51,084 nt of DNA from Roseburia sp. (lineage in GTDB: Bacteria; Bacillota; Clostridia; Lachnospirales; Lachnospiraceae). A program made the position numbers and the translations under genes. The DNA is taken from positions 1-51,084 of the forward strand of contig JAMPFC010000008.1 in the NCBI GenBank assembly GCA_023664685.1. The letters are read 5' to 3'. Below, one piece after another: positions 8,864 to 51,084 of this stretch. Every line of letters begins with the position of its first letter. The stretch's first letter is position 1. The notes under the pieces are model-generated. The model did no database searches. It saw nothing but the letters and a program-made list of their open reading frames with translations, and was not told the DNA's origin.

Positions 8864-9319
8864 ATGAAATTTGTGATTCAGCGGGTAGCGCATGCTTCGG
8901 TGACGATCGACGGAGAGACAAAAGGAAAGATCAGAACAGGATTTTTAGTTCTTATTGGAATCGGAAAAGGGGACGATGAGAGCATTGCGGATAAGCTTGT
9001 CCGCAAACTGGTCGGTATGCGCATTTTTGAGGATGAAAATGGAAAGACAAATCTGGGGCTTAAGGATGTGAATGGGGAACTACTCCTTATTTCACAATTT
9101 ACGTTGTATGCGGACTGCCGGAAAGGAAACCGTCCTTCTTTTACAGAAGCCGGGGCGCCAGAGGAGGCAGAGCGTTTGTATGAATATATCATTGCCCGCT
9201 GCAAAGAGGAAATTCCGGTTGTGGAGACCGGAGAGTTTGGGGCAGATATGAAGGTGGAACTTATGAATGATGGGCCATTTACGGTCATACTGGACAGTGA
9301 GGAGGTTTGTGGGAAGTGA
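8864..9319 (+). CDS. dtd: D-aminoacyl-tRNA deacylase
   Basis: Cytosolic homodimer that removes D-amino acids (and glycine mischarged on tRNA-Ala) from tRNA, a proofreading step in translation. Both active-site signatures are intact: [17 protein letters not shown] from residue 77 and NDGPFTV at 135-141, with the Gly-Pro pair that gives chiral selectivity. Length 151 is standard. AAAGGAC precedes the start. Its TGA overlaps the GTG of the lipoprotein gene as GTGA, so the two are translationally coupled. Confidence 0.95.
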
Positions 9320-10788
9320 GGAAAAACAGTTTTGGCGCATGGGGAGTGATTATGGCAGTATCGTTGGCTGTCGGTCTGTTATCCGGCTGTGGCGGCGAAT
9401 ATGACACGTCATTTCATGGTGGGACAGAGAATGTCTCTGGCGCAGCAATCCATGTTACGGGACAGGCGGTATCTGGTCAAGCAGTAGATAGTCAGCCGGT
9501 CTCTGGTTCTCCGGTTTCAGCCAGAGAGGAAAATACAGAACAATATCGTTTTTGCAATAAAACGCATCTGTATTACTGTGATTATGATGAAGGCGATTCT
9601 TTTCTGGTAGAGCGTAGTTTGGAGGATTCCTCTGAGCGGAAAATATTTATTAAAAATTTTGAGAAAGTTTGTTATGTGGACGATAACTGGGTGTATTATG
9701 TGAAATGGGAAAAAGCAGACGCAGATGATGAGAAACGGTATAGTTATGACCAGTTGTGGCGGGCGCCGATCCACGAAAAAGAGGGTGAGAGAACACTGGC
9801 TGAAAAAGAGGGAGAACGGATCTTTACGGAAAAATCCGGAATAGGTGACAGCACGTACGATTATTCATGGCAAAATTTTTATTGTGACGGGCGTTATATA
9901 TTGTATATTACAACAGATAATTATACTCTGAAAGAATATGATTTAAAGAAGCGAGAGTACATAAAGCCATCCGGGAGAAAGAGTCTGGGGATCGCGAGCA
10001 TCGGTACGATCTGGGGAAAGACAGGAATTGTCAGTTTTAGTACAAATGGCGAGGGGATGTATCGTTTGGATCTGGATACCGGAGAGCTGGGCCGGATCAC
10101 GGATTCACGGGTATTTGAAGAAAACGTAGTGGGGACAGAAGATGATGTGTTTTATCAGGAAGGTTTTGATGAAACCTATGCGGTATGGCAGTATCATATA
10201 GAGGATGGCAGCAAACAGAAAATCCTTGTGCCGGAACAGTTGAAAGAGAAATTGGAAGAAGAACAGCTGATGGATTTTTCCAAAGGGAAAGAACATTCGT
10301 ATTATGTGTCGGAGATGTTTATCCGGAACAACAGTCTGTACTATCAGGTATCTTTGTCGTGGATGGAGGGCGAGACGGAATATCAGGATTATGCGATATT
10401 CCGTGTGGGACTAGATAAAACGGACGAGCTTATTTATGAAAAAGGGCTTTCAGAAGTGTTAAAAAATCCAGCGGAAAACCAAAAAGCATTTCACAAGGAA
10501 AGTTGGGTTCCCGGTGGCGCTCCGGAGAGCGAGAATATCATTTACCGAAGCCGCGGGGGAGTGGTAATGATGACAGAGGAGAGTGCGTATTGTGTTCTTT
10601 ATAATCCGCAGGAGGGCAAAAACCGGCTGGGGTGCTATGACTTTGACAGTGGGCAGATGAAATACATTACAAAAAAGGATGTAGAGTTTGAGCCGATGAT
10701 GTGCCGGTATGGAGATGTATTATTTGCCGGGGGATACCAATGGGGGATTTTTCGTTTCCTTCCAAATAATGAGGAATTATCACTATGA
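9316..10788 (+). CDS. Lipoprotein with probable beta-propeller domain
   Basis: Exported lipoprotein of unknown function. The signal sequence ([16 protein letters not shown]) ends in a clear lipobox LSGC with the lipidated cysteine near residue 25. A low-complexity stretch of VSGQAV/VSGSPV repeats follows. The main body has recurring strands of the type '[19 protein letters not shown]', '[16 protein letters not shown]' and '[16 protein letters not shown]', which suggest a TolB/DUF5050-like propeller. GTG at 9316 is the best start (AGGAGG 10 nt upstream); a TTG at 9307 is too close to it. The stop overlaps the recQ-like ATG as ATGA. Confidence 0.7.
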
Positions 10789-25503: not shown

Positions 25504-26703
25504 ATGATGGTCATGACAGATAAAAAGGTAAAAAAATTATTTGAACAGGAACTTGAGATTCCGGAGGTTGTGTCGGATAAAATGCGGGAAGCGTATCAGC
25601 AGATCGGGGCGGATATGGAAAAGGCAGATCAGATTGCCAGAGGACGCCATGTGGGTGGTCATGCGGCAAAGCGGTATTTAAAAGCGGCTTCAATCATGTT
25701 ATGTTTTCTGGTTGCCGCGACAACAGTCAGTGCAGCCGCAGGTGGTGGGTTTCAAAAACTTTCAAAGCTGTTTGGCGGTGATGTACAGCAGATCCAGCAT
25801 TCGACGATAAAGCCGGAAGTTTCGACAGCGAAAAATTCATTTAAGAACCTGAAAGTTTCTGTGGAACAGGTGACAGGATCGGAAAAACTTACTTATGTGC
25901 TTTTAAAACTCAAACGAACCGATGGAAAAACTTTTGATAAGGATAAGAAATACAGTTTTAAAGGTGTTCGTATGATAGGAGAAAACGATCAGGAAAGGGG
26001 TGTTACTGATAGTGGTGCTGAGACATATATTTTGATTCAGGGTGGAGAAGATGAGGGTGATGAATATGATATCACAACCCAGAGTCATTTTATAGATCCG
26101 GGTATTATGGTTGAAAATAAAGGGACGGATGAAATTTATCTGGCAGTGGCGTATGCTTATGAACGTACCCATGATGGGAAGAACTATTACCATAGGGGAG
26201 AGAAATGTACTCTTCTTTTGGGGAATCTCTGCCAGAAAGGAGAAGACGGTGAGGATCATACGATCATGAAAGGGGAGGTGGAGACGGAGTTTGTATTAGA
26301 TTATGGAAAGTGTCCAGAAAAGATTGTGGAGCTGAATCAAAAAATCCAACTTCCTAAATGTGGAAGTGATACAAACTATCTTTCGGCTGGGATTTTGAAA
26401 CGTGTTACCATTACACCATATTATATCCAGTATGAGAGAGAGATGTCTGAAAAAGAGACGGAAGCCCCTACATGGGAGCAGATTTATGTGGAAATGGAAG
26501 ACGGGAAAATGGTCGGCTATCCAACGGAAAAAGACCGATTTGAGGCAGATGAAAACGACGGTATGGGTGGGTTCGGAGACGGAATACGATATGGCGAAAG
26601 TAAGAAAATGCAGATGAAAGATTCTCTTTTGTTCCATGAACTGATCGATGTAGAGCATGTGAAGGCGGTCTGGTTTGGAAAGACGCGGATTGAGGTTGAA
26701 TAG
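25504..26703 (+). CDS. Anti-sigma factor with DUF4179-like extracellular part
   Basis: Residues 1-58 form a cytoplasmic segment (KKLFEQELEIPEVVSDKMREAY), residues about 60-78 one transmembrane helix (AASIMLCFLVAATTVSAAA), and the remaining 320 residues an extracellular beta-rich domain. This is the layout of DUF4179 anti-sigma proteins that hold an ECF sigma factor at the membrane. It directly follows the sigma gene. ATGs at 25504, 25507 and 25513 are possible; AAAGGATAGGAG fits 25504. The signal sensed is unknown. Confidence 0.8.
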   Translation: MMVMTDKKVKKLFEQELEIPEVVSDKMREAYQQIGADMEKADQIARGRHVGGHAAKRYLKAASIMLCFLVAATTVSAAAGGGFQKLSKLFGGDVQQIQHSTIKPEVSTAKNSFKNLKVSVEQVTGSEKLTYVLLKLKRTDGKTFDKDKKYSFKGVRMIGENDQERGVTDSGAETYILIQGGEDEGDEYDITTQSHFIDPGIMVENKGTDEIYLAVAYAYERTHDGKNYYHRGEKCTLLLGNLCQKGEDGEDHTIMKGEVETEFVLDYGKCPEKIVELNQKIQLPKCGSDTNYLSAGILKRVTITPYYIQYEREMSEKETEAPTWEQIYVEMEDGKMVGYPTEKDRFEADENDGMGGFGDGIRYGESKKMQMKDSLLFHELIDVEHVKAVWFGKTRIEVE

Positions 26704-33298: not shown

Positions 33299-33477
33299 AA
33301 GATTTTACTGCCCCTATCCTGTGTGCTTCTACTGCGTTTAACGGAGGACAATGTGAGAAATTGCATTGATATGCCAATTTCTCACATGGCAATTTGTTTC
33401 TAAGCGAAAGCAAATTGCTCTGATCCGACACGAGAAACTCTTCGAGATTTCTCGTGCGGTTCTTCGCGATAAATCGC
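33292..33477. repeat. Cascade of five hairpins between flgN and flgK
   Basis: H1 33292-33335 (GCAGTAGAAG/CTTCTACTGC, includes the flgN stop), H2 33351-33387 (ATGTGAGAAATTG/CCAATTTCTCACAT), H3 33389-33418 (GCAATTTG/CAAATTGC), H4 33429-33456 (CACGAGAAA/TTTCTCGTG with inner CTC/GAG), H5 33466-33477 (GCGAT/ATCGC). None has a T-run. No gene lies here. Confidence 0.8.
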
Positions 33478-33507
33478 TCAGAAAAGAGGAAATACGGAGG
33501 AAATGTT

Positions 33508-35325
33508 ATGGGAAACTTATTTGCCAGTTTTAGTACCGGTGTATCGGGACTACATTCAGCACAAACCTCATTGAATACAGCGGCGCATAACCTTGCAAAT
33601 GCGACGACGCCCGGCCACACAAGGCAGCAGGCTGTTGTGACGGATTCGTTTTATTCCACAAGATTTGGAGCTTATGGAAATCGTATGCAGATCGGATATG
33701 GAACGGATGTCGTGCAGATCCGCCAGATCCGCAATACATTTCTCGACGACCAGTACAGGCTGCAGACCGGCCGCCAGAGTTTTTATGAGGCACAGTATGA
33801 TGCGGTGAGCGAAATGGAGACCCTGTTTGGGGAACTTGAAGCAGAAGAGTTTATTGATTCGATGACCAGCCTGTGGGAGAAGCTGCAGGAACTTGCCAAA
33901 TCTCCGGATGATATCGTAAGGAGAACAGAACTTGTGTCGGTATCGACACAGTTTATCGAGCGTGCGCAGGTGCTTCAAGATCAGTTGAAAGCTTACCAGA
34001 CAAATATGAATGACGAGATCAGGAGCCAAGTAGAGCGGGTGAATGAAATCGTTTCCGAAGTTTCGGACTGCAATATGCTGATCCGGAGATACGAGGCAAC
34101 CGGCGAGCGGGCGAATGATTACCGCGACCAGAGAAATCTTTTGCTTGATGAACTCAGTTCGATCATAAAATTTGAGACCTCGGAAGAAAGGGATGGTACG
34201 GTATCGATTTTTGCCGAAGGCGCCTTTTTACTCACCGGGGATTCACAGGTTCGTCTCGATGTGGCATATGAGAGCGAGGACTCCAAACTTTTGAAACCGG
34301 TGTGGGCATATGGCGTAGACTTTTTCCGCCGGGGCGAGCTGTTTTATTCTTCTGAGACAGAGACGGACGTCGGTTCGCTCAAAGGACTTTTGGTGGCGAG
34401 AGGGCCGAAGGCTGCAGATTATACCGACATGCCGGTAAAACCAGTAGAAGAAGATTTTATTGATAAATTCGGAACGCTTGATGAGCGGGCATATACCAAT
34501 GCGATGGAAGCCTATGATGAACAGGTAGAGTATTATAACCAGAATGTAGACCCATCCGTTATCATGAGGGTTCAGGCAGAATTTGACCAGTTGATCCGGG
34601 GCATTGCGATGATGATCAATGACACGATCTGTCCGGATAAGGAGCTTACGCTGTCGGATGGCACCAAACTGCGGATTCTGGATACCGATATCGCTCCGAT
34701 CGGAGATGACGCGGACAAGACGATGGGAACAGAACTCTTTGTGAGAAGAAATACACCGCGTTATACCGAGACAGAACTTGTCGATGAGTTTGGAAATGCA
34801 TTACTTGATGCAGATGGGAATCCGCTTGTGGATGCGAAAGGGAAGCCGCTTAAAGTATATGTCTATAATGAAGAAGATCCCTCTGACCGCTATACACAAT
34901 ATACGATAGATCAGCTTGAGGTAAATACAGAACTTCTCAGGGATCCTTCCAAACTTCCGCTGAATGAAAATCCAAATACAGGACACGTAGGCGGATTCAG
35001 CCAGAAGATGTGTGACAAGATTCTGGAAAAATGGGGTCAGGAATTTTCGACACTGGATCCAAATGCAATGACAAGATATAATTTTACGGATTACTATAAA
35101 AATCTTGTGGATCAGTTTTCGACAGAAGGATATATATGGCGTGGAATTATTGAGAACCAGATCATTACAGTTAATTCGATCGAGGGCGAGAGACAGAATG
35201 TGATGGGAGTTTCGACCGAGGAGGAACTTGCCGATCTGATCAAATTTCAGAAATGCTTTGACGCTTCGTCGAGATATATCACTGTCGTCGATGAGATGAT
35301 CGAGCATCTGATAACCAGCTTATAA
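33508..35325 (+). CDS. flgK: Flagellar hook-associated protein 1 (first FlgK)
   Basis: Forms the junction ring between hook and filament. The N-terminal rod/hook signature is FSTGVSGLHSAQTSLNTAAHNLANATTPGHTRQ (shown as SGLHSAQTSLNTAAHNLANA), the D1 helices follow with NDYRDQRNLLLDELSSI near residue 210, and the C-terminus ends ELADLIKFQKCFDASSRYITVVDEM, the usual axial-protein helix. The ATG at 33508 follows GGAGG; an in-frame ATG at 33454 would read through hairpin DNA. Length 605. Confidence 0.9.
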   Translation: MGNLFASFSTGVSGLHSAQTSLNTAAHNLANATTPGHTRQQAVVTDSFYSTRFGAYGNRMQIGYGTDVVQIRQIRNTFLDDQYRLQTGRQSFYEAQYDAVSEMETLFGELEAEEFIDSMTSLWEKLQELAKSPDDIVRRTELVSVSTQFIERAQVLQDQLKAYQTNMNDEIRSQVERVNEIVSEVSDCNMLIRRYEATGERANDYRDQRNLLLDELSSIIKFETSEERDGTVSIFAEGAFLLTGDSQVRLDVAYESEDSKLLKPVWAYGVDFFRRGELFYSSETETDVGSLKGLLVARGPKAADYTDMPVKPVEEDFIDKFGTLDERAYTNAMEAYDEQVEYYNQNVDPSVIMRVQAEFDQLIRGIAMMINDTICPDKELTLSDGTKLRILDTDIAPIGDDADKTMGTELFVRRNTPRYTETELVDEFGNALLDADGNPLVDAKGKPLKVYVYNEEDPSDRYTQYTIDQLEVNTELLRDPSKLPLNENPNTGHVGGFSQKMCDKILEKWGQEFSTLDPNAMTRYNFTDYYKNLVDQFSTEGYIWRGIIENQIITVNSIEGERQNVMGVSTEEELADLIKFQKCFDASSRYITVVDEMIEHLITSL

Positions 35326-35350: not shown

Positions 35351-37216
35351 ATGTCTACTTTTCAGGGATTTGATATTGCAAAATCGGGTATGATGACATA
35401 TAACGCCTCAATGCAGACGGCGGCGCATAACCTTGCCAACATCGGGACGCCGGGGTATTCGCGTCAGGTGGTAAAGACCTCGGCGCAGACGAGAAATGTA
35501 AGTTCCATAAAAGTGGTAGGAGCCGGTGTACACGCACTGGAGATCCAAAGACTGCATGATGAGTACTATGATACAAAATATCAGAGTGCAAGTGCAAAAT
35601 ACAATAAATATACGACGCATACAAAATATCTTCTCGAGGTACAAAGATACCTGTATACAAAAAACGATGATGATGGCGGAATCACAACTGCATTTGACCG
35701 GTTTTGTAAGTGTCTGACTGGAACGACGACAGAGGCGGGGGATGAGACGAGAAGAGAAGAAATCCTCACATACGCAGATACATTTACAAGCTTTATACAG
35801 GAAAATGCGACCAATCTTGCGGGCATCCAGAAGGATGCGAACGAAGAGATCAAATCCTGCATCACCCAGATCAATGCGATCGCAGAAAAGATTTCCTTTG
35901 TCACAAGACAGATCAACACATTGGAAGCGTACGGAAATCCGGCAAACGACCTGAGAGACCAGAGAAATGTGCTGTTAGACGAATTATCAGAATTTTGCAA
36001 TGTCGAGACGTTAGAGAGAGAACCGGCGGACGGTGTCGGTCTGACACAGTTTTATGTCTATGTCAATGGCGGGGTTCTTGTTGACACATATGACGTCAAT
36101 CCGCTGCAGGTGACGATGACAGATACGAAAAAGAGCATCAATGACATTGACGGGCTTTATAACATCCAGTGGACAGACGGAACCCGCTTTAACCCATACA
36201 GCTCGAGCCTTGGCGGCAAGCTGCAGGCGCTTTTTGAAGTGCGGGATGGAAATAACACCACGACACTCAGCGGAAAAGCGGCGGCGATCGAAGATGGAAA
36301 AGACGGAAATCCGATCGTAACGATGACGGGTGCCAACATCAATGATGTGCAGCTTCTCAATATTCCGGCAGAGGATGGGGAGATCACGATCGGAAGTACG
36401 ACATATACGTACAAGGAATTTGAAGTAGAAGTATCGGAGAAAGGCGAATTTACTTACAAATTTACCCTCAAAAACAATATGACGACCAAACAGGCGACTG
36501 CATTAACTGCTGCTGTTGGCAGAGGTGTGAATATGATCGTCGGTGATAGTATAAATTATAAAGGGATCCCTTATTATATGGCTCAGCTCAATGAATTTGT
36601 GAGAACGTATGCGCAGAGTTTTAATGACGTCCACAAAGAAGGGTATGATAAGTACGAGAATCTGGGGATCGATGTATTTAATGCAAAAGTACCGGCGACC
36701 GGAGACAATTATATTTTCACCTCGAAAGGCGAGGGAGGATATGATGCATCCTTTTCTTCTGTTGCCAAACAGGAGGCGAACGGAAGTTATACCGGAAGCT
36801 ATTATTATATGACAGCGATGAATGTCTGCATCACCGATGCGGTAGTGAAAGATTCGGGGCTGCTTGCCTTTAATGGGCCGGACAGCATACTGGCAGAATC
36901 ACAGAACCTCAATCTCCAGAGGTTAGCAAACTTAAAAGATGCCTCTAAGATGTTCTTGCATGGGGCGCCGGATTCGTTTCTCCAGTCCCTTACCGCAGAT
37001 GTCGGCGTCGACTGTGAGAAAGCGATCTTACTGGAGTCCGGACAAAAAGACATCAGAGACTCCGTGGATCTGCAGAGACAGGCACTTTCGGGGGCGGATG
37101 AGGATGAGGAGACACACGACCTGATCACATACCAGCAGATGTTATTTAACCAGTATAAGGTGCTTTCTGTAATGAACCAAGTTCTGGATAAGCTGATCAA
37201 CCAGACAGCTGTATAA
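35351..37216 (+). CDS. flgK: Flagellar hook-associated protein 1 (second FlgK)
   Basis: A second, diverged FlgK of 621 residues directly behind the first. N-terminus: FDIAKSGMMTYNASMQTAAHNLANIGTPGYSRQ (core TAAHNLANIGTPGYSRQ); D1: NPANDLRDQRNVLLDELSEF; C-terminus: ITYQQMLFNQYKVLSVMNQVLDKL. The two differ throughout the variable middle domain. Tandem flgK genes are seen in other motile Lachnospiraceae; they may form a mixed junction or serve different filaments. GGAGGAAATGGG precedes the start. Confidence 0.9.
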   Translation: MSTFQGFDIAKSGMMTYNASMQTAAHNLANIGTPGYSRQVVKTSAQTRNVSSIKVVGAGVHALEIQRLHDEYYDTKYQSASAKYNKYTTHTKYLLEVQRYLYTKNDDDGGITTAFDRFCKCLTGTTTEAGDETRREEILTYADTFTSFIQENATNLAGIQKDANEEIKSCITQINAIAEKISFVTRQINTLEAYGNPANDLRDQRNVLLDELSEFCNVETLEREPADGVGLTQFYVYVNGGVLVDTYDVNPLQVTMTDTKKSINDIDGLYNIQWTDGTRFNPYSSSLGGKLQALFEVRDGNNTTTLSGKAAAIEDGKDGNPIVTMTGANINDVQLLNIPAEDGEITIGSTTYTYKEFEVEVSEKGEFTYKFTLKNNMTTKQATALTAAVGRGVNMIVGDSINYKGIPYYMAQLNEFVRTYAQSFNDVHKEGYDKYENLGIDVFNAKVPATGDNYIFTSKGEGGYDASFSSVAKQEANGSYTGSYYYMTAMNVCITDAVVKDSGLLAFNGPDSILAESQNLNLQRLANLKDASKMFLHGAPDSFLQSLTADVGVDCEKAILLESGQKDIRDSVDLQRQALSGADEDEETHDLITYQQMLFNQYKVLSVMNQVLDKLINQTAV

Positions 37217-43316: not shown

Positions 43317-43353
43317 CGGATTTTGAAAAAAGTGAAATTTTTTAAAAAAAGGG

Positions 43354-43380
43354 TTAAGTTTTGTTGAATGACTCCGATAT
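43354..43380 (+). promoter_or_regulatory. SigD (sigma-28) promoter of flagellin
   Basis: TTAA, 15 bp, TCCGATAT; transcription would start near 43387 and give a 150-nt leader. Confidence 0.8.
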
Positions 43381-43537: not shown

Positions 43538-44356
43538 ATGATAGTACAGCACAATATTACATCAATGAACGCCAACAGACAGTTGGGAATCGTAGGGAAC
43601 AACCTTACAAAAGCTACAGAGAAACTTTCCAGTGGTTACAGAGTAAACCGTGCAGCAGATGATGCAGCAGGACTTGCAATTTCTGAGAAAATGAGAGCTC
43701 AGGTTCGTGGCTTGCAGAGAGCTTCTGACAATGCTCAGGATGGTATTTCTCTGATCCAGACAGCTGAGGGTGCTATGGAGCAGCAGCATGCAATCCTTCA
43801 GAGAACTCGTGAGTTGGTTGTTCAGGCTGGTAACACCGGAGTTCTGGAGTCCACAGCAGAGGACGATTATCAGAAGATTCAGGATGAGATCGATGCACTG
43901 AAAGGTGAGTACGAGAGAATCAATACTGATACAGAGTTCAACAAGAAGAAACTGTTAGATGGTAGTTACACAAACCAGTGGCTGCAGATTGGTGCTAACG
44001 ATGGTCAGGGTATCACAGTTAACATCGCATCCCATGCTTGGACTGATGTAGATGTAACAGGTGGAGCAGCAGGTGGAAAGAGTGCAACTCTGATTCAGAC
44101 AGTTGACACGATGCTTCAGACCGTTTCTACAATCCGAAGCGCTTTGGGTGCTATCCAGAACCGTCTTGAGTATACCGTTAAGGTTGATGACAACACCGCT
44201 GAGAACATGCAGGCAGCTGAGTCTCGTATCCGTGATACAGATATGGCTGACGAAATGACAAGATTCTCCAAAGAGAGCATCTTGCAGCAGGCAGCTACAT
44301 CAATGCTTGCTCAGGCAAATCAGGCAAATCAGGGAGTGCTTTCACTTCTCCAGTAA
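43538..44356 (+). CDS. fliC: Flagellin
   Basis: Filament subunit. N-terminal D0/D1: MIVQHNITSMNANRQLG and ATEKLSSGYRVNRAADDAAGLAISEKMR; C-terminal D1/D0: NMQAAESRIRDTDMADEM, SILQQAATSMLAQANQANQGVLSLLQ. At 272 residues it has almost no variable D2/D3 domain. Codon choice is strongly biased compared with neighbours, as in very highly expressed genes. AGGAGG gives the start at 43538. Control: SigD promoter, leader hairpin, CsrA sites. The genes behind it may modify this protein. Confidence 0.97.
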   Translation: MIVQHNITSMNANRQLGIVGNNLTKATEKLSSGYRVNRAADDAAGLAISEKMRAQVRGLQRASDNAQDGISLIQTAEGAMEQQHAILQRTRELVVQAGNTGVLESTAEDDYQKIQDEIDALKGEYERINTDTEFNKKKLLDGSYTNQWLQIGANDGQGITVNIASHAWTDVDVTGGAAGGKSATLIQTVDTMLQTVSTIRSALGAIQNRLEYTVKVDDNTAENMQAAESRIRDTDMADEMTRFSKESILQQAATSMLAQANQANQGVLSLLQ

Positions 44357-44404: not shown

Positions 44405-44440
44405 AAAGGATATCCCGGTATCTATCGGGGTATCCTTTTT
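44405..44440 (+). terminator. Intrinsic terminator after flagellin
   Basis: AAAGGATATCCC pairs with GGGGTATCCTTT and is followed by Ts. No separate promoter is obvious between it and the first licD-like gene, so some readthrough may feed the downstream operon. Confidence 0.85.
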
Positions 44441-44482
44441 CTCGTATAAAGAATGGAACGAATGGAACAAATGGAGGGTGTC

Positions 44483-46828
44483 ATGGAATTTCAGGATTCT
44501 TATTTTGAAGATGAAGTGCGGGAGGGATTTTTCATCCCGGGTATGATGAAACGCTCATGGGCGGCGCAGCTAGAAGTCTTGAACGATATCAGGAAAGTGT
44601 GTGACAGACATAATCTTTCTTATTTTGCCGAGTGGGGGACGATGATCGGTGCGGTGCGTCATGGCGGCATCATTCCGTGGGATGATGATATTGATATCTG
44701 CATGAAGCGGAAAGATTTTGAGACGTTTTTTGAGATTGCTGAAAAGGAGCTGCCGGAGGGCTACTGGCTGATGAACTATCGGACGCACGATATCAATAAT
44801 ATGGTGTTGAGGGTGATAAATTATCCAATTTCACTCTTACAGGAGAAGGATCTGCCCCGCTTTCACGGATACCCATATTCCTCGGGGGTTGATATATTTG
44901 CGATGGATTTTCTTCCGCGGGATAAGGAAGGGCAGAAGGCATTATGGGATCTGCTCTATCTGGTTGGACAGTTGAATCATCACATTGAGATTGGGGAGAC
45001 GGAGTCAGAAGAATTTTTGTATGCCCTTCATGGAATGGAAAAAATCTGTGGTGTTACCTTTGAGAAGGAACGGGCATTAAAGAGGCAGCTTGTGGGAGCA
45101 CTTGAGCGGGTGGCGTCCCGCTTTCTAGAAGAAGACTGCGAGGAACTGACGGAGATTTCTTATTATTTAAATTCGGATTCCTATCATTTTCCGAAATCCT
45201 ACTATGCCCAAACGATTGAACTTCCGTTTGAGAATACCCATATTACGGTGCCGATTGGATATGACCCTCTGCTCAAGAAGAAATATGGGGATTATATGAG
45301 GCCAGCCAAGATATTTGATACCCATGATTATCCGGGGTATAAGTCAGCGCAGGATGAAATTCGGGAACGGATGAAGATTGAACCCTTTGAGTATAAGTTT
45401 TCAAAGGCAGAACTGGAGGAGGCAGAGGCAGGGCGGACAAAAAAGGAAACCCTGCGGCAGAACGTGGAGGCGTTCCTGCCATTATTTGAGGAGGCGCATG
45501 GCGAGATTCGGAGGATGTTAAAAGAGGGAGAGTTCTCTCTCGTGACGGGAATCCTCGGAGAATGCCAGAATGCGGCGATTCAGCTCGGTACGATGATCGA
45601 GGAAGCGCAGGGAGAGGGACATGCGACCGTGGGAATCCTTGAGCAGTATTGTGAGACGATCTTCCGGCTGCATCAGATGTTAAGCGGGGAAGAAGCTGTT
45701 GGCACGGATGAGGGAATTACAGCTTGCGTCGGGGAACTGCAGGCGTTTGAGGGACGTCTGGCGGAAAGCATAAAGAACGATATCAAAGAGAGAAAAGAAG
45801 TTGTGTTTGTGCCATACAAAACTTCGCTCTGGGGGGCGATGGAGAGTGTATGGAAGGCGGCGATGGAGGATGAGGAGACAGACGTCTATGTGATTCCGAC
45901 ACCGTATTATTATAAAGATGATTTTGGAAAGGTCAAGAAGGACGAACCGCATTATGAGACCGATTATCCGGAGGGGGTTACGGTTACGTCCTATGAAGAA
46001 TATAATTTTGAGGCGCACCATCCGGACATGGTCGTGATCCAGTATCCGTATGATGAATACAGCTATGGCTTGACGGTTCATCCGTTCTTTTATGCAAAGA
46101 ACCTGAAAAAATATACGGATCAGCTTGTGTATATTCCTCCATTCTTGGTGGATGAGATTGTAGAAGGGGACGAGCGCGGCCGCGCGACGCTGCGGTATTT
46201 TTGTGATACACCGGGAGTCGCTTATGCCGATACGGTGATCGTGCAGTCTGAGCAGATGAAGGAAGTGTATGTGGAGCTTCTGACGGAATTTGCGGGAGAG
46301 GAGACAAAGGAAATGTGGGAAAATAAAATATTAGGCTTAGGTTCTCCGGAGCATGACAAAAAGAGAAAGGATTTATCCGCCGAGACAGCTTCCAAAGAAC
46401 TTCCGGAGGATTGGAGCCAGAAGATCTGGCGGCCAGACGGAAGCCGCAAAAAGATCATTCTCTATTATGTGAGTGCGAGCCTGTTATTTAGTGACGGTGA
46501 TCTGGTGACAAGTAAGATGAAAGAAGTATTTGACTTGTTTGAGGGGAAGCAGGACGAGCTTGTGATGTGGTGGCGGCCGGATCCCAAGGCAAGGGAAATT
46601 CTGCGGAAGACGAAACCGGGCGTGTGGCAAAAATACCGGCAGCTTTTAGAAGAATACAAAAATGCCGGATGGGGGATCTGTGATGATTCTACAGAGTTAG
46701 AACGTGCAGTCCGTTTTTGCGACGCCTATTATGGAGACGGTAGTAGAATCGCCAATATGTGCCGGGTTCAGAAGAAGTTCATCATGCTGCAAAATGCAAC
46801 AGTGCAAAATGCACTGGCACAGAAATGA
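44483..46828 (+). CDS. LicD-family phosphotransferase fused to a GT-B/glycerophosphotransferase-like domain
   Basis: N-terminal LicD domain (about 20-270): YFAEWGTMIGAVRHGG followed by IPWDDDIDICM is the LicD nucleotidyltransferase-fold signature. LicD enzymes pass phosphocholine or a similar group from a CDP/CMP ester to a glycan. A helical linker (about 300-430) leads to a Rossmann-like domain (437-775) beginning EVVFVPYKTSLWGAMESVW, with VQSEQMKEVYVELL and, after residue 648, a second half (IILYYVSASLLFSDGDLV, MWWRPDPKAR) like CDP-glycerol glycerophosphotransferases or GT-B enzymes. The start at 44483 follows GGAGGGTG. First gene behind flagellin. Confidence 0.8.
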   Translation: MEFQDSYFEDEVREGFFIPGMMKRSWAAQLEVLNDIRKVCDRHNLSYFAEWGTMIGAVRHGGIIPWDDDIDICMKRKDFETFFEIAEKELPEGYWLMNYRTHDINNMVLRVINYPISLLQEKDLPRFHGYPYSSGVDIFAMDFLPRDKEGQKALWDLLYLVGQLNHHIEIGETESEEFLYALHGMEKICGVTFEKERALKRQLVGALERVASRFLEEDCEELTEISYYLNSDSYHFPKSYYAQTIELPFENTHITVPIGYDPLLKKKYGDYMRPAKIFDTHDYPGYKSAQDEIRERMKIEPFEYKFSKAELEEAEAGRTKKETLRQNVEAFLPLFEEAHGEIRRMLKEGEFSLVTGILGECQNAAIQLGTMIEEAQGEGHATVGILEQYCETIFRLHQMLSGEEAVGTDEGITACVGELQAFEGRLAESIKNDIKERKEVVFVPYKTSLWGAMESVWKAAMEDEETDVYVIPTPYYYKDDFGKVKKDEPHYETDYPEGVTVTSYEEYNFEAHHPDMVVIQYPYDEYSYGLTVHPFFYAKNLKKYTDQLVYIPPFLVDEIVEGDERGRATLRYFCDTPGVAYADTVIVQSEQMKEVYVELLTEFAGEETKEMWENKILGLGSPEHDKKRKDLSAETASKELPEDWSQKIWRPDGSRKKIILYYVSASLLFSDGDLVTSKMKEVFDLFEGKQDELVMWWRPDPKAREILRKTKPGVWQKYRQLLEEYKNAGWGICDDSTELERAVRFCDAYYGDGSRIANMCRVQKKFIMLQNATVQNALAQK

Positions 46829-46835
46829 GGTAGTT

Positions 46836-48752
46836 ATGGAGTTTCCAGATTCTTATTTTGAAGATGAGGTAAGAGAGGGGTTCTACATATGTAGTCTCAT
46901 GAAGCGTGCATGGGCGGCGCAGGCAGAGGTATTGGACGCAGTCCGGCGTATTTGTGAGACGCATCATATCCGCTATTTTGCAGAATGGGGAACTCTGCTT
47001 GGGGCGATACGCCACGGCGGAAGAGTTCCGTGGGATGATGATGTGGATATATGTATGCTCCGGGAGGATTACGACCGGTTTCGTGCAGTGGCAGATGATG
47101 AGCTTCCGGAAGGGTGCTGGTTTATGGACTATCAGTGGTCGGATGATTTTGACCATTTGATCGGAAGGATCATCAACTCCCGGGTTTTGGTCGTAGAGGG
47201 CGAAGCGTTGGAGAAATACCACGGTTTTCCTTATGTGGCGGGAATTGATATTTTTTGTCTGGATGATCTGCCGACAGACCCGGAGGAAGAGGAAGCCTAT
47301 TTTGAAACGGTACATTATCTGATCACGCTGATCAATGAGATTCGCTTGGACAAAGAGGGCATACGAAAGGCTGATCCGGTCGAATTAGAGAGCCATATCC
47401 GGCATATGGAGGAACTTTGTCATGTGTCGTTTGACCGGAGCAAGCCGGTAAAGCAGCAGCTGTATGCGCTTTTGGAAAAGAAAGTCGGGCCCAAATACGC
47501 CGGAACCGGGGCAGAGGAGATCACAAGTCTTCCGTGGTGGAAGAAGAACAGGCGATATCGTGTCCCGAAGGAATGTTATGCGGATGCGGTGGCGGTGCCA
47601 TTTGAAAATACCGAGATCATGGTTCCGGCAGGATATATGGAACTGCTTCGGAGGAAGTATGGCGGGAACTGGGTCATGCCGATTCGTGCCGGGAGTGCGC
47701 ACGAGTATCCATCTTATGAGGAACAGCAGGAATTTTTGCGGAAAGAAAATGCCGGACAGTTATTTGAGTATCCGTTTTCTAAAGAAGAGATTCAGGAAGC
47801 AGAGGCGGCAAGGCTGTCACAGCGACAAGCACATTTGTCTGAACAGTCGCTGAAGGAGAAAGTGATCGGGTTTCTCCCTCTTTTTCGGGAAGCACATGGA
47901 GAAATCCAGTCCTTACTTGAAAGCGGGGATGCAGAATCGGCGCTGGGGCTTCTGGGGGAGTGCCAGAATGTGGCGATCGAGATCGGGACGATGATCGAGG
48001 AGGAAGTGGGAGAGGGCTGTGCGACAGTTAGGGTGCTTGAGCAGTATTGTGAGAATATTTTTCTTTTGCACCAGAAGTTACAGGAAGCTGCAGACGAGCT
48101 GAATATTTCTTTGCAGGAATTGACTGCTTTTCCGGAACACCTTGCGGACAGTGCAAAAAAAGAATTGAAAGAGAAAAAAGAAGTGGTCTTTGTACCATAT
48201 AAGGCTTCCCTTTGGGGGGCGATGGAAAGTGTGTGGCAGGCGGCTTTGGCAGAGGAGGATACGCTTGCATTTGTCATTCCGGCGCCATATTATTATAAAG
48301 ATGCTTATGGAAAAGCGAAGTCGGAGGAACCGCACTATGAGACGGATTACCCAGATTATGTGACGGTTACATCGTATGAGGAATATAATTTTGAAAGTCA
48401 TCATCCGGATATGATCATCATCCAGTGTCCGTATGATGAATACAATTATGGATTTACGATCCATCCATTTTTCTATGCAAAGAATCTCAAGCAGTATACA
48501 GAGCAGCTCGTTTATATTCCGCCATTTGTGATGGATGAGATCGGGCCGGATGATGACCGGGCAAAGAAGATGTTGAAATCTTTTTGCAATATGCCGGGGG
48601 TTGTCCATGCCGATACGGTGATCGTGCAGTCTGAGCAGATGAAGGACGTGTATATTGAGTTGTTGAGCGAATTTGCCGGAGAGGATACCAGAACGGTCTG
48701 GGAGGAAAAGATACAGGGGATTGGCTCACCGTTATACGATGCCGCTAGATGA
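46836..48752 (+). CDS. Second LicD fusion, C-terminal half-domain missing
   Basis: Paralogue of the preceding gene: MEFPDSYFEDEVREGF against MEFQDSYFEDEVREGF, LicD core YFAEWGTLLGAIRHGG followed by VPWDDDVDICM, the same helical linker, and the first Rossmann half from residue 447 (EVVFVPYKASLWGAMESVW) to IVQSEQMKDVYIELL. It stops at residue 638 just where the second half of the C-terminal domain begins in the first gene (about residue 648 there), so the pair may act as one complex or this copy may be a LicD-only enzyme. GAGGTAGTT precedes the ATG, 7 nt behind the first gene. CTACATATGTAG occurs at 46883. Confidence 0.8.
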   Translation: MEFPDSYFEDEVREGFYICSLMKRAWAAQAEVLDAVRRICETHHIRYFAEWGTLLGAIRHGGRVPWDDDVDICMLREDYDRFRAVADDELPEGCWFMDYQWSDDFDHLIGRIINSRVLVVEGEALEKYHGFPYVAGIDIFCLDDLPTDPEEEEAYFETVHYLITLINEIRLDKEGIRKADPVELESHIRHMEELCHVSFDRSKPVKQQLYALLEKKVGPKYAGTGAEEITSLPWWKKNRRYRVPKECYADAVAVPFENTEIMVPAGYMELLRRKYGGNWVMPIRAGSAHEYPSYEEQQEFLRKENAGQLFEYPFSKEEIQEAEAARLSQRQAHLSEQSLKEKVIGFLPLFREAHGEIQSLLESGDAESALGLLGECQNVAIEIGTMIEEEVGEGCATVRVLEQYCENIFLLHQKLQEAADELNISLQELTAFPEHLADSAKKELKEKKEVVFVPYKASLWGAMESVWQAALAEEDTLAFVIPAPYYYKDAYGKAKSEEPHYETDYPDYVTVTSYEEYNFESHHPDMIIIQCPYDEYNYGFTIHPFFYAKNLKQYTEQLVYIPPFVMDEIGPDDDRAKKMLKSFCNMPGVVHADTVIVQSEQMKDVYIELLSEFAGEDTRTVWEEKIQGIGSPLYDAAR

Positions 48753-48778
48753 AGAAACCAGAGAGAGGAGTATCAGAG

Positions 48779-49897
48779 ATGAAACGAAATATTTTATTAA
48801 ATCCGGGGCCATCTACTACGACGGATACGGTAAAGATGGCGCAGGTCGTCCCGGACATATGCCCGCGTGAAAAAGAGTTTACTGAACTGATGGCAAATCT
48901 GCGCAGGGACTTGCTGCGTGTCGTCCATGCGTCTCCGGAGAAATATACGACTGTTTTATTTTGCGGTTCCGGCACGATCAATATGGATGTCTGCCTCAAT
49001 TCACTGCTGCCAGAGGATAAAAAAGTTTTGATCATCAATAATGGGGCGTACAGCTCCCGGGCGGTCGAGATTTGCGAATACTATGGACTGCCTCATATAA
49101 ATCTGAAATTTCCGGAGGATGAGCTGCCGGATCTGGTGCTGATCGAGCGGACTTTGAAAGAAAATCCGGATATTGCTCTCGTGCATACGACGCATAATGA
49201 GACCGGTACGGGAATCCTGAACCCGGTGCGGGAGATCGGGGAACTGGTTCACCGTTACGGTGCGGTATTTACGGTAGATACGACTTCGACACTGGCGATG
49301 TTGCCGATTGATATCGAGCGCGATCATATTGATTTTTGCATGGCTTCTGCCCAAAAGGGACTGATGGCGATGACCGGTTTATCCTTTATCATAGGAAACC
49401 GGTCGATGATCGAGGCGTCCAAAGAGTATCCCAAACGCTCGTATTACTGCAATCTTTATTTGCAGTATCATGTGTTTGAGACGACCGGCGAGATGCATTT
49501 TACGCCCCCGGTACAGACGGTCTATGCGACCGTGCAGGGCTTGAAGGAATATTTTGAAGAGGGCGAAGAAGAAAAGTGGGCGCGCCATACAAGGGTGTTT
49601 GAGGCGCTTCACAGAGGGCTTGACCGGCTTGGATTGAAAGACCTTATCCGGCGGGAATGGCAGGCGGGCTTGGTCGTTTCTGTGCTTTATCCGAAAGATG
49701 TAAACTGGGATTTTGAAAAAGTTCATGATTATTGCTATGAGCGCGGCTATACGATATACCCGGGGAAGATTTCCGATATGGATACATTCCGGCTGTGTGC
49801 GCTCGGGGCGATCGATGAGCAGGATATCGAGGACTTTTTTGTCGTTTTTGAACAGGCGTTGAGAGAGACCGGGGTGGCTGTGCCGGTCGTATATTAG
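48779..49897 (+). CDS. phnW: 2-aminoethylphosphonate-pyruvate transaminase-type enzyme
   Basis: PLP aminotransferase (class V). The start MKRNILLNPGPSTTTDTV and MAQVVPDICPREKEF are hallmarks of PhnW; the PLP lysine is K193 in SAQKGLMAM, and CGSGTINMDVCLNSLLP holds the phosphate-binding part. In degradation it turns AEP into phosphonoacetaldehyde; in biosynthetic clusters it runs in reverse to make AEP. With phosphonopyruvate decarboxylase alongside, the biosynthetic direction is inferred. The ATG at 48779 follows GAGAGGAG; an ATG at 48749 that overlaps the previous stop is less likely. Length 372. Confidence 0.9.
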   Translation: MKRNILLNPGPSTTTDTVKMAQVVPDICPREKEFTELMANLRRDLLRVVHASPEKYTTVLFCGSGTINMDVCLNSLLPEDKKVLIINNGAYSSRAVEICEYYGLPHINLKFPEDELPDLVLIERTLKENPDIALVHTTHNETGTGILNPVREIGELVHRYGAVFTVDTTSTLAMLPIDIERDHIDFCMASAQKGLMAMTGLSFIIGNRSMIEASKEYPKRSYYCNLYLQYHVFETTGEMHFTPPVQTVYATVQGLKEYFEEGEEEKWARHTRVFEALHRGLDRLGLKDLIRREWQAGLVVSVLYPKDVNWDFEKVHDYCYERGYTIYPGKISDMDTFRLCALGAIDEQDIEDFFVVFEQALRETGVAVPVVY

Positions 49898-49906
49898 GAG
49901 GAAATG

Positions 49907-50623
49907 ATGGAAATAGCAATTCTTATGGCGGCGGGTATGGGAACGAGGATGCGCCCGCTCACGGAGAAGATTCCCAAACCGTTGGTGCGTGTCAATGGCA
50001 CACCGATGATCGAGACGGTGATAAATGGCCTGCGGCGAAGAGGGGTAGACCGGATCTATGTTGTCGTTGGTTATCTGGGAGAGCAGTTTTCTTATCTGAC
50101 CGATCGATACGACAATATTGTAATCATTGAAAATAAAGAATACCAGACAGTGAATAATATTTCCTCTATTCATGCAGCAGGGGAGGTTCTGGGAAGCGCG
50201 GACTGCTTTATCTGTGAGGCAGATCTGGTTATTTCGGATGTGGGTATTTTCGGAGCTTCTCTTGAAAATTCTTGTTATTATGGGAAGATGGTTCCCGGGT
50301 ATTCGGATGACTGGGTGTTTGATCTGGAGGGAGATTATATTTCACGTGTGGGAAAAGGCGGGACAGACGCATGGAATATGGTCGGGATTTCGTATTTTAA
50401 AAAGGAAGATGCGGCGGTTTTGCGTGATGCGATCGAGCGGGCATATGAGAGCGGCGGTTATGCGGAGTTATTCTGGGACGAGGTCGTGGATGCGAATCTT
50501 GACAAACTGCGGCTGATGGTATATCCTGTAACGCAGGAGCAGATTGTGGAGATTGATTCCGTGGAGGAGCTGTGTGCGGTCGATCCCGGGTATCAATGTG
50601 ATATGGGGGAGGAAACGAAGTGA
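49907..50623 (+). CDS. Cytidylyltransferase, LicC/PntC-like
   Basis: Nucleotidyltransferase with the pyrophosphorylase signature AAGMGTRMRPLTEKIPKPLV (from residue 8), ICEADLVISD carrying the metal-binding acidic residues, and the LicC-typical SCYYGKMVPGYSDDWVFDL and WNMVGISYFKKEDA. LicC makes CDP-choline from phosphocholine; PntC makes CMP-AEP from AEP. Its place between an AEP transaminase and phosphonopyruvate decarboxylase favours AEP as substrate. The second ATG of ATGATG (49907) has the better spacing to AGGAGG. The TGA overlaps the next GTG as GTGA. Confidence 0.85.
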   Translation: MEIAILMAAGMGTRMRPLTEKIPKPLVRVNGTPMIETVINGLRRRGVDRIYVVVGYLGEQFSYLTDRYDNIVIIENKEYQTVNNISSIHAAGEVLGSADCFICEADLVISDVGIFGASLENSCYYGKMVPGYSDDWVFDLEGDYISRVGKGGTDAWNMVGISYFKKEDAAVLRDAIERAYESGGYAELFWDEVVDANLDKLRLMVYPVTQEQIVEIDSVEELCAVDPGYQCDMGEETK

Positions 50624-51084
50624 ACGTAGAAACTTTTTTAAACGTGATCGGCGCGGAATTTTATACAGGTGTTCCGGATTCACAGCTTAAGGCGCTTTGC
50701 GACTACCTGATGGATACGTATGGAATTGACGAAAAACACCATATCATCGGGGCAAATGAAGGAAACTGTACCGCACTGGCGGCGGGGTATCATCTGGCTA
50801 CCGGCAAGATTCCTCTTGTTTATCTGCAAAATTCGGGAGAGGGAAATATCATCAATCCGGCAGCCTCCCTTCTGAGCGATGAGGTGTATGCGATTCCGAT
50901 GATTTTTGTCATTGGCTGGCGCGGAGAGCCGGGGGTGAAAGATGAACCACAGCATAGCTATCAGGGAAAAGTGACGCTGAAATTGTTGGAAGATATGGAT
51001 ATTTCTTCCTTTGTCATGGATTTGGAAGTGACCGAGGAACGTCTGCGTGATGTTATGGCAGGGTTTAAAAAATGCATGGAACAT
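50620..51084 (+). CDS. Phosphonopyruvate decarboxylase, 3' end outside window
   Basis: Thiamine-diphosphate enzyme that converts phosphonopyruvate to phosphonoacetaldehyde and pulls the unfavourable PEP mutase reaction forward. The first 155 residues are visible: FYTGVPDSQLK, GANEGNCTALAAGYHLATG with the cofactor-activating glutamate, YLQNSGEGNIINPAASLL, and VIGWRGEPGVKDEPQHSYQG, all typical of Ppd. GTG start at 50620, coupled to the previous gene by a 4-nt overlap. PEP mutase is expected further downstream or nearby, outside the window. Confidence 0.9.
   Translation, partial: MNVETFLNVIGAEFYTGVPDSQLKALCDYLMDTYGIDEKHHIIGANEGNCTALAAGYHLATGKIPLVYLQNSGEGNIINPAASLLSDEVYAIPMIFVIGWRGEPGVKDEPQHSYQGKVTLKLLEDMDISSFVMDLEVTEERLRDVMAGFKKCMEH

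Follow-up and report, generated by a model that had tools for sequence, protein, structure and literature searches.

A gene cluster directly behind flagellin in Roseburia sp. and its relatives as a candidate system for phosphonate modification of flagella

The stretch of DNA analysed here (the window) is the entire contig C120 (JAMPFC010000008.1; 51,084 bases) of a Roseburia sp. draft genome (G000; 3.0 Mb, 131 contigs), and its last part holds a late flagellar cluster (two flgK-like genes, flgL, fliW, flaG, fliD, fliS, a FlgN-like gene and flagellin), directly behind which lie genes for a putative synthesis, activation and transfer of 2-aminoethylphosphonate (AEP). The flagellin gene (43538-44356, + strand, 272 amino acids; PF00669 141 bits, PF00700 86 bits), whose product is the proposed acceptor, is preceded by a motif that we take to be a sigma-28-like promoter (43353-43380, +; a comparable site is found in the genomes G038 and G005), and is followed by a hairpin with a T run (44408-44440, +) that recurs in near-identical form in G038, G006 and G005. 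Thereafter, all on the + strand, come two LicD fusion genes (LicD1, 44483-46828, and LicD2, 46836-48752), a PhnW/AepZ-type 2-aminoethylphosphonate transaminase (48779-49897; TIGR03301 465 bits, cut-off 361), a PntC/LicC-type nucleotidyltransferase (49904-50623) and the N-terminal 155 codons of a phosphonopyruvate decarboxylase (ppd, 50620-51084; PF02776), which is cut by the contig end. Profile matches thus place on one strand, and at the same positions, every gene that the preliminary description had named from the letters of the window.

The same description had asked for pepM just downstream and regarded its absence from the genome as fatal to a phosphonate reading. Searching G000 for phosphoenolpyruvate (PEP) mutase gave a single match above cut-off, on the 6,105-base contig C14 (L004), the minus strand of which encodes first the C-terminal half of ppd and then a cytidylyltransferase-like domain (PF01467) fused to PEP mutase (PepM; TIGR02320 406 bits, cut-off 320). 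The translation of this PepM contains EDKTGLKKNS, which corresponds to the EDKXXXXXNS motif given in the accessible part of PMC6697681. The two contigs overlap by 8 bases only, with the ppd frame open across the junction; this junction, thin by itself, is supported by three other genomes of the genus (G038, G006 and G005), in each of which a single contig carries flagellin, LicD1, LicD2, phnW, pntC, full-length ppd and cytidylyltransferase-pepM contiguously and in the same order, and we therefore rejected chance or a contig artefact as its cause. In the ppd profile TIGR03297 (cut-off 312.5) the full-length proteins of G038 and G006 score 447 and 450, and the C-terminal half on C14 scores 281.

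Besides the PF01467 domain fused to PepM, the locus encodes a second nucleotidyltransferase two genes upstream, the PntC/LicC-type protein, whose best matches in the PDB are Streptococcus pneumoniae LicC (1jyk, 119 bits) and, in second place, Treponema denticola PntC (6pd1, 52 bits). As described in the available portion of PMC6697681, Glu196 and Glu104 of PntC lie near the AEP amine, their equivalents in LicC being Asp192 and Asp105. In alignments read by eye (with an inferred offset in chain numbering), the window protein carries Glu105 at the position of PntC Glu104 and LicC Asp105, and an Asp, as in LicC, at that of PntC Glu196. The first of these residues lends support to the preliminary description, and we consider Glu105 to be compatible with AEP as a substrate.

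The two putative transferases both match the LicD family over its full length (PF04991, profile positions 1-227 of 227, cut-off 22.6; LicD1 105.8 bits, LicD2 109 bits). LicD1 (for which the ATG at 44483 was chosen by its ribosome-binding site, the longest open reading frame (ORF) beginning at 44453) consists of a LicD domain, a helical linker and a GT-B-like (TagF/UDP-GlcNAc-2-epimerase-like) domain, and LicD2 (638 amino acids) of a LicD domain and the first half only of the GT-B-like domain, a short form also present in G005, G006, G038 and G032. The WDDDxD-type motif of the LicD half aligns to human FKRP, the sole clear solved relative found, which we take to be a CDP-ribitol-using transferase. 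The C-terminal GT-B-like half is, to our knowledge, absent from ordinary LicD proteins. Its identification as TagF was dropped, as both the profile and the motif speak against it: PF04464 (TagF/CDP-glycerol glycerophosphotransferase) matches neither LicD1 nor LicD2 nor the isolated C-terminal domain, and at the RPHP site, a motif important for TagF, LicD1 reads RPDP and LicD2 does not contain the corresponding half. RPHP is found in 40 of 40 unfused relatives examined, and among 48 LicD fusions it occurs once (NPHP once, the stretch being absent from seven). Comparison of the C-terminal half with three TagF-like domains in hhalign gave a probability of 8.6 (E 0.0039), a PDB profile search with it returned nothing useful, and the best Pfam match to the domain had an E of 0.049, in one unfused relative. 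The LicD half of the structure model of LicD1 was poor (predicted local distance difference test scores mostly 24-61, better around residues 160-200) and was not used. We infer that the altered half of LicD1 may act in acceptor recognition or glycosyl transfer. No membrane segment was predicted in LicD1, LicD2 or the AEP enzymes.

Outside the window, a LicD domain and this C-terminal domain were found on one ORF (ORF starts being mechanical) in 25 compared stretches, 14 of which contain flagellin. In 11 of the 25 the fusion ORF begins 0-207 nt 3' of flagellin and shares its strand; of the remaining flagellin-bearing stretches, one each has the fusion 1.3 kb behind, the fusion 4.1 kb behind, and flagellin 4.8 kb downstream. 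The 11 stretches that have no flagellin include several short contigs. Three stretches come from named records (an uncultured Lachnospiraceae, an Eubacteriales bacterium and an Eubacterium sp.); a scan of a named genome collection gave six loci with LicD fusions in three, although these records may overlap with the other genomes studied. Within the genus (39 genomes), flagellin lies within 5 kb in at least 13 of the 26 contigs that encode the GT-B-like domain, and in all 13 such contigs, among the matches listed, it is upstream and on the same strand; the domain and PepM occur together in 12 genomes (domain only in 4, PepM only in 3, neither in 20; Fisher p 1.5e-4 with kinship ignored). The AEP genes of another member, G025, also adjoin a flagellin-LicD-LicD unit. 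The domain as a general marker of flagellin was rejected, since flagellin occurs in only 9 of 40 stretches chosen for it (one per genome, from the 90 family genomes that have the domain); the tie to flagellin is mainly with its LicD-fused form. The conservation of the flagellar link, on which the preliminary description had made its reading depend, thus holds for three relatives with pepM and, as regards the LicD fusions, beyond them.

Taken together, the predicted proteins form a complete enzyme set, in a fixed order, conserved behind flagellin and free of predicted membrane segments, and we consider it probable that they constitute a dedicated flagellin-modification locus, by which AEP would be made, activated to CMP-AEP and transferred by LicD onto flagellin or its glycan. 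According to this scheme PepM, phosphonopyruvate decarboxylase and the PhnW-type transaminase would convert PEP into AEP, PntC (and perhaps also the PepM-fused cytidylyltransferase domain) would turn AEP into CMP-AEP, and LicD1 and/or LicD2 would place AEP on flagellin, most likely on a sugar that it carries, while the protein is still in the cytoplasm and not yet exported. The scheme would resemble that of Clostridioides difficile type A, with LicD in the place of the TagF-like transferase.

In C. difficile type A the modification genes sit beside flagellin, and here, too, the putative modification genes adjoin it. The accessible text of PMC10714395 describes N-acetylglucosamine on FliC capped with N-methyl-phosphothreonine, for which a CDP-threonine donor and the TagF-like transferase CD0244 are proposed. 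Judging from the accessible parts of PMC10714395 and PMC11833859, C. difficile type A (cd0240-cd0244) and Pseudomonas aeruginosa b-type (pa1088-pa1091) are flagellin-modification clusters, as the present locus probably is, in which a cytidylyltransferase is proposed to make a CDP-linked donor and a phosphotransferase would cap the flagellin sugar. The present locus differs from these systems in that a complete de novo AEP pathway would supply the donor, in that LicD fusions with a TagF-like half devoid of RPHP stand in as transferases, and in that glycosyltransferase family 2 (GT2), phosphoserine-phosphatase-like and FkbM methyltransferase genes are not found in the cluster (Pfam matched none of them in the window's part of the cluster or in the scanned genes of C14). 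As a separate observation, the locus L057:6908-12183 of genome G076 is reminiscent in its arrangement of the cluster of C. difficile type A, with flagellin, a GT2 with tetratricopeptide repeats, a TagF-like/propeller ORF and a PF01467 cytidylyltransferase-like gene. The second point of comparison is given by the Pnt clusters of T. denticola, Atopobium rimae and Olsenella uli, which, as outlined in the accessible portion of PMC6697681, likewise contain Ppm, Ppd, an AEP transaminase, PntC and LicD-like or glycosyltransferase genes, with a nucleotidyltransferase fused to or near Ppm (as is also the case here); they are predicted there to tailor cell-surface glycans or lipids, whereas the present cluster lies behind flagellin in several genomes, with no membrane component found. 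From LicD and fukutin-related phosphotransferases, with which they share a full-length PF04991, the window proteins differ by the additional GT-B-like half and the genomic tie to flagellin. The window locus would combine a C. difficile-like flagellin modification with a Pnt-type cluster.

Several observations weigh against this interpretation. Between flagellin and LicD1 lies the hairpin with its T run (not among the calls of a generic terminator scan), and the CCGAT core of a sigma-28-like site was not seen in this interval, which makes co-expression or co-transcription of flagellin and the LicD genes uncertain. Neither the window's part of the cluster nor the genes scanned on C14 included a separate glycosyltransferase. 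The four genomes with the full cluster are close kin; flagellin-linked pepM falls in three places of the tree, but an approximately unbiased test does not reject a single origin (p 0.418 with G025, 0.182 with G269 added), and several origins were accordingly dropped. Glu at the PntC position is present in 26 of 26 PntC-type sequences scoring at least 276 bits (the window included), the other 25 of which all come from stretches that carry pepM and were for the most part selected by it. Tyr or Cys stands there in three long LicC-like proteins (one with a choline kinase domain), and Glu also in three long nucleotidyltransferases that have no pepM nearby; Glu105 is therefore not diagnostic, and we abandoned it as proof of AEP use. 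The reactions, the donor used by LicD and flagellin as the acceptor are, moreover, predictions from the genes.

The wider family adds further weight on this side. Of 397 genomes sampled from the family, 46 have PepM of this type, G000 being one of them, and 44 of 46 stretches fetched around pepM in the other 45 genomes contain no flagellin. In G227 a weak flagellin match lies on the opposite strand about 7 kb from pepM, and in G269, of another genus, L075:4919-18610 contains two flagellins, an FkbM-type methyltransferase, cytidylyltransferase-pepM, three LicD genes and a LicC-choline kinase fusion, so that phosphonate and phosphocholine genes stand side by side near flagellin. The cassette could thus place AEP on a surface polysaccharide or teichoic acid precursor (as is predicted for most phosphonate clusters), its position behind flagellin being incidental. 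Ten scanned proteins that neighbour pepM in the family would suit such an acceptor, for among them are three membrane proteins of 60KD_IMP plus TagF-like type, two sulfatase-like proteins (one below cut-off) and proteins of the ABC-transporter and glycosyltransferase kinds, and LicD of the Lic pathway acts on cell-wall glycans according to the accessible part of PMC6697681. A simple hydropathy test of the first 20 pepM stretches (18 of them without flagellin) detected at least one multi-pass ORF near pepM in 12 of the 18 flagellin-free stretches; six (two of which are short contigs) had none, like the flagellin-linked ones, which makes the contrast only partial. The four flagellin-linked stretches checked had no multi-pass ORF near pepM, bar one ORF antisense to phnW, and the absence of membrane segments would agree with an acceptor in the cytoplasm, for instance flagellin that is yet to be exported. 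As LicD fusions of this type also follow flagellin in several taxa, whether AEP genes are present or not, we regard a surface polymer as an unlikely destination.

The remaining weight against AEP transfer to flagellin comes from the donor. A flagellin-LicD1-LicD2 unit on contig C4 of G032, whose LicD1 is 55% identical to that of the window, is followed by an IspD/TarI-like cytidylyltransferase, a zinc dehydrogenase and a ribulose-phosphate epimerase instead of AEP genes; the donor hence looks exchangeable, and LicD sequence does not dictate AEP. The cytidylyltransferase scores 161 bits for IspD (cut-off 181) and 137 for the ribitol-5-phosphate subfamily (cut-off 166), and the dehydrogenase is nearest to galactitol-1-phosphate dehydrogenase (208, cut-off 550). 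G027 has flagellin, a LicD fusion, an epimerase, an IspD-type gene and a dehydrogenase. As an observation in its own right, the flagellin-LicD loci L045:4726-12918 and L058:7008-12764, with IspD/TarI-like, polyol-phosphate-dehydrogenase-like and ribulose-phosphate-epimerase genes, are candidates for a CDP-polyol modification of flagellin. The LicD enzymes of the window might likewise use CDP-polyol, CDP-choline or a similar donor, or LicD1 and LicD2 might differ in donor, with AEP serving one of them or going elsewhere, a possibility favoured by these cassettes, by FKRP being the only clear solved relative of the LicD half and by the unequal lengths of LicD1 and LicD2. The G032-type cytidylyltransferase, however, was seen, complete or partial, with at least 40% identity in 4 of the 39 genus genomes (G032, G027, G007 in pieces and G008 as one piece). 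In G000, G005, G038 and G025 there is one copy only, with 25-28% identity to that of G032 (G006 also has a second one at 33%), and in G000 LicD is accompanied by PntC and the PepM-fused domain as cytidylyltransferases; we therefore hold another donor to be less likely still than a surface polymer as acceptor.

From these loci it would appear that similar flagellin-LicD units can be followed by an AEP cassette or by one of polyol type, and we tentatively propose, at somewhat less than an even chance, a modular flagellin-capping system in which a LicD catalytic domain is joined to a TagF-like domain that has lost its catalytic motif, and in which interchangeable cassettes for the donor (CMP-AEP in the window genome and G025, of CDP-polyol type in G032 and G027) might lead related bacteria to display different phospho- or phosphono-groups on their flagella.

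A free diffusible phosphonate, with no conjugate formed, is a further conceivable product. A PEP phosphomutase chain, 5x3d, which we take to be a domain of Fom1, was among the matches found, and the accessible text of PMC6697681 gives examples of PepM-cytidylyltransferase fusions in small-molecule pathways (e.g. Fom1 of fosfomycin biosynthesis). The presence of two LicD transferases and PntC, and the lack of any tailoring oxidase-, ligase- or exporter-like gene among the scanned cluster genes, make such a product very improbable, and transfer of AEP to flagellin or its glycan is the reading that we retain.

As regards the surroundings, a Kelch/propeller-like protein of about 390 residues (Pfam matches below cut-off only) is encoded convergently to pepM in G000, G038, G006 and G005, and such proteins were located at L004:2954-4117 (+), L042:15432-16625, L057:7383-9905 and L060:9724-12264. 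A TagF-like domain and a Kelch/propeller-like stretch share one ORF in G076 (an ORF of G060 is similar by eye), which suggests a common pathway. A 343-residue protein that has no Pfam match and is GNAT-like by eye (L004:1057-2088, -) also lies near the cluster in G038, G005, G025 and G013. Within the window, the late flagellar cluster contains a consecutive FlgK-like gene pair (33454-35325 and 35351-37216), both members of which match PF22638, and two large ORFs of 493 and 399 amino acids (9307-10788 and 25504-26703) have no Pfam match at E 0.001.

Phosphonate chemistry on flagella has a precedent, which tempers the view of the preliminary description that such a decoration would be unusual: as far as the accessible part of PMC8861647 states, 2-AEP was found in 2022 on a small part of the flagellin glycan of C. 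difficile type A, a species negative for pepM, with the origin of the 2-AEP open and other bacteria speculated upon as its source. Among the matches listed from the openly licensed literature (mostly titles and abstracts), no phosphonate, pepM or LicD genes were linked to flagellin beyond that paper and a review citing it, nor was a dedicated flagellin-linked gene system found there; in the parts available, a Campylobacter genome paper places a licABCD locus in the decoration of lipooligosaccharide or teichoic acids with phosphorylcholine, and a paper on a flagellin island (PMC5109656) mentions a tagD gene. Of the earlier interpretation, the parts concerning pepM, conservation and the nucleotidyltransferase have gained support, its remark on how unusual phosphonate-bearing flagella would be needs correction, and the shortness of the flagellin, in which it saw added interest, speaks neither for nor against it.

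If the proposed function is true, the cluster would represent a set of genes devoted to decorating flagella with a phosphonate and would offer a genetic basis for the chemistry seen in C. difficile, the question of the 2-AEP source becoming testable with defined genes. Flagella are an immune target, and the cluster bears on how flagellar surface chemistry differs between related bacteria. Moreover, it suggests that LicD proteins may be redirected by swapping the donor cassette.

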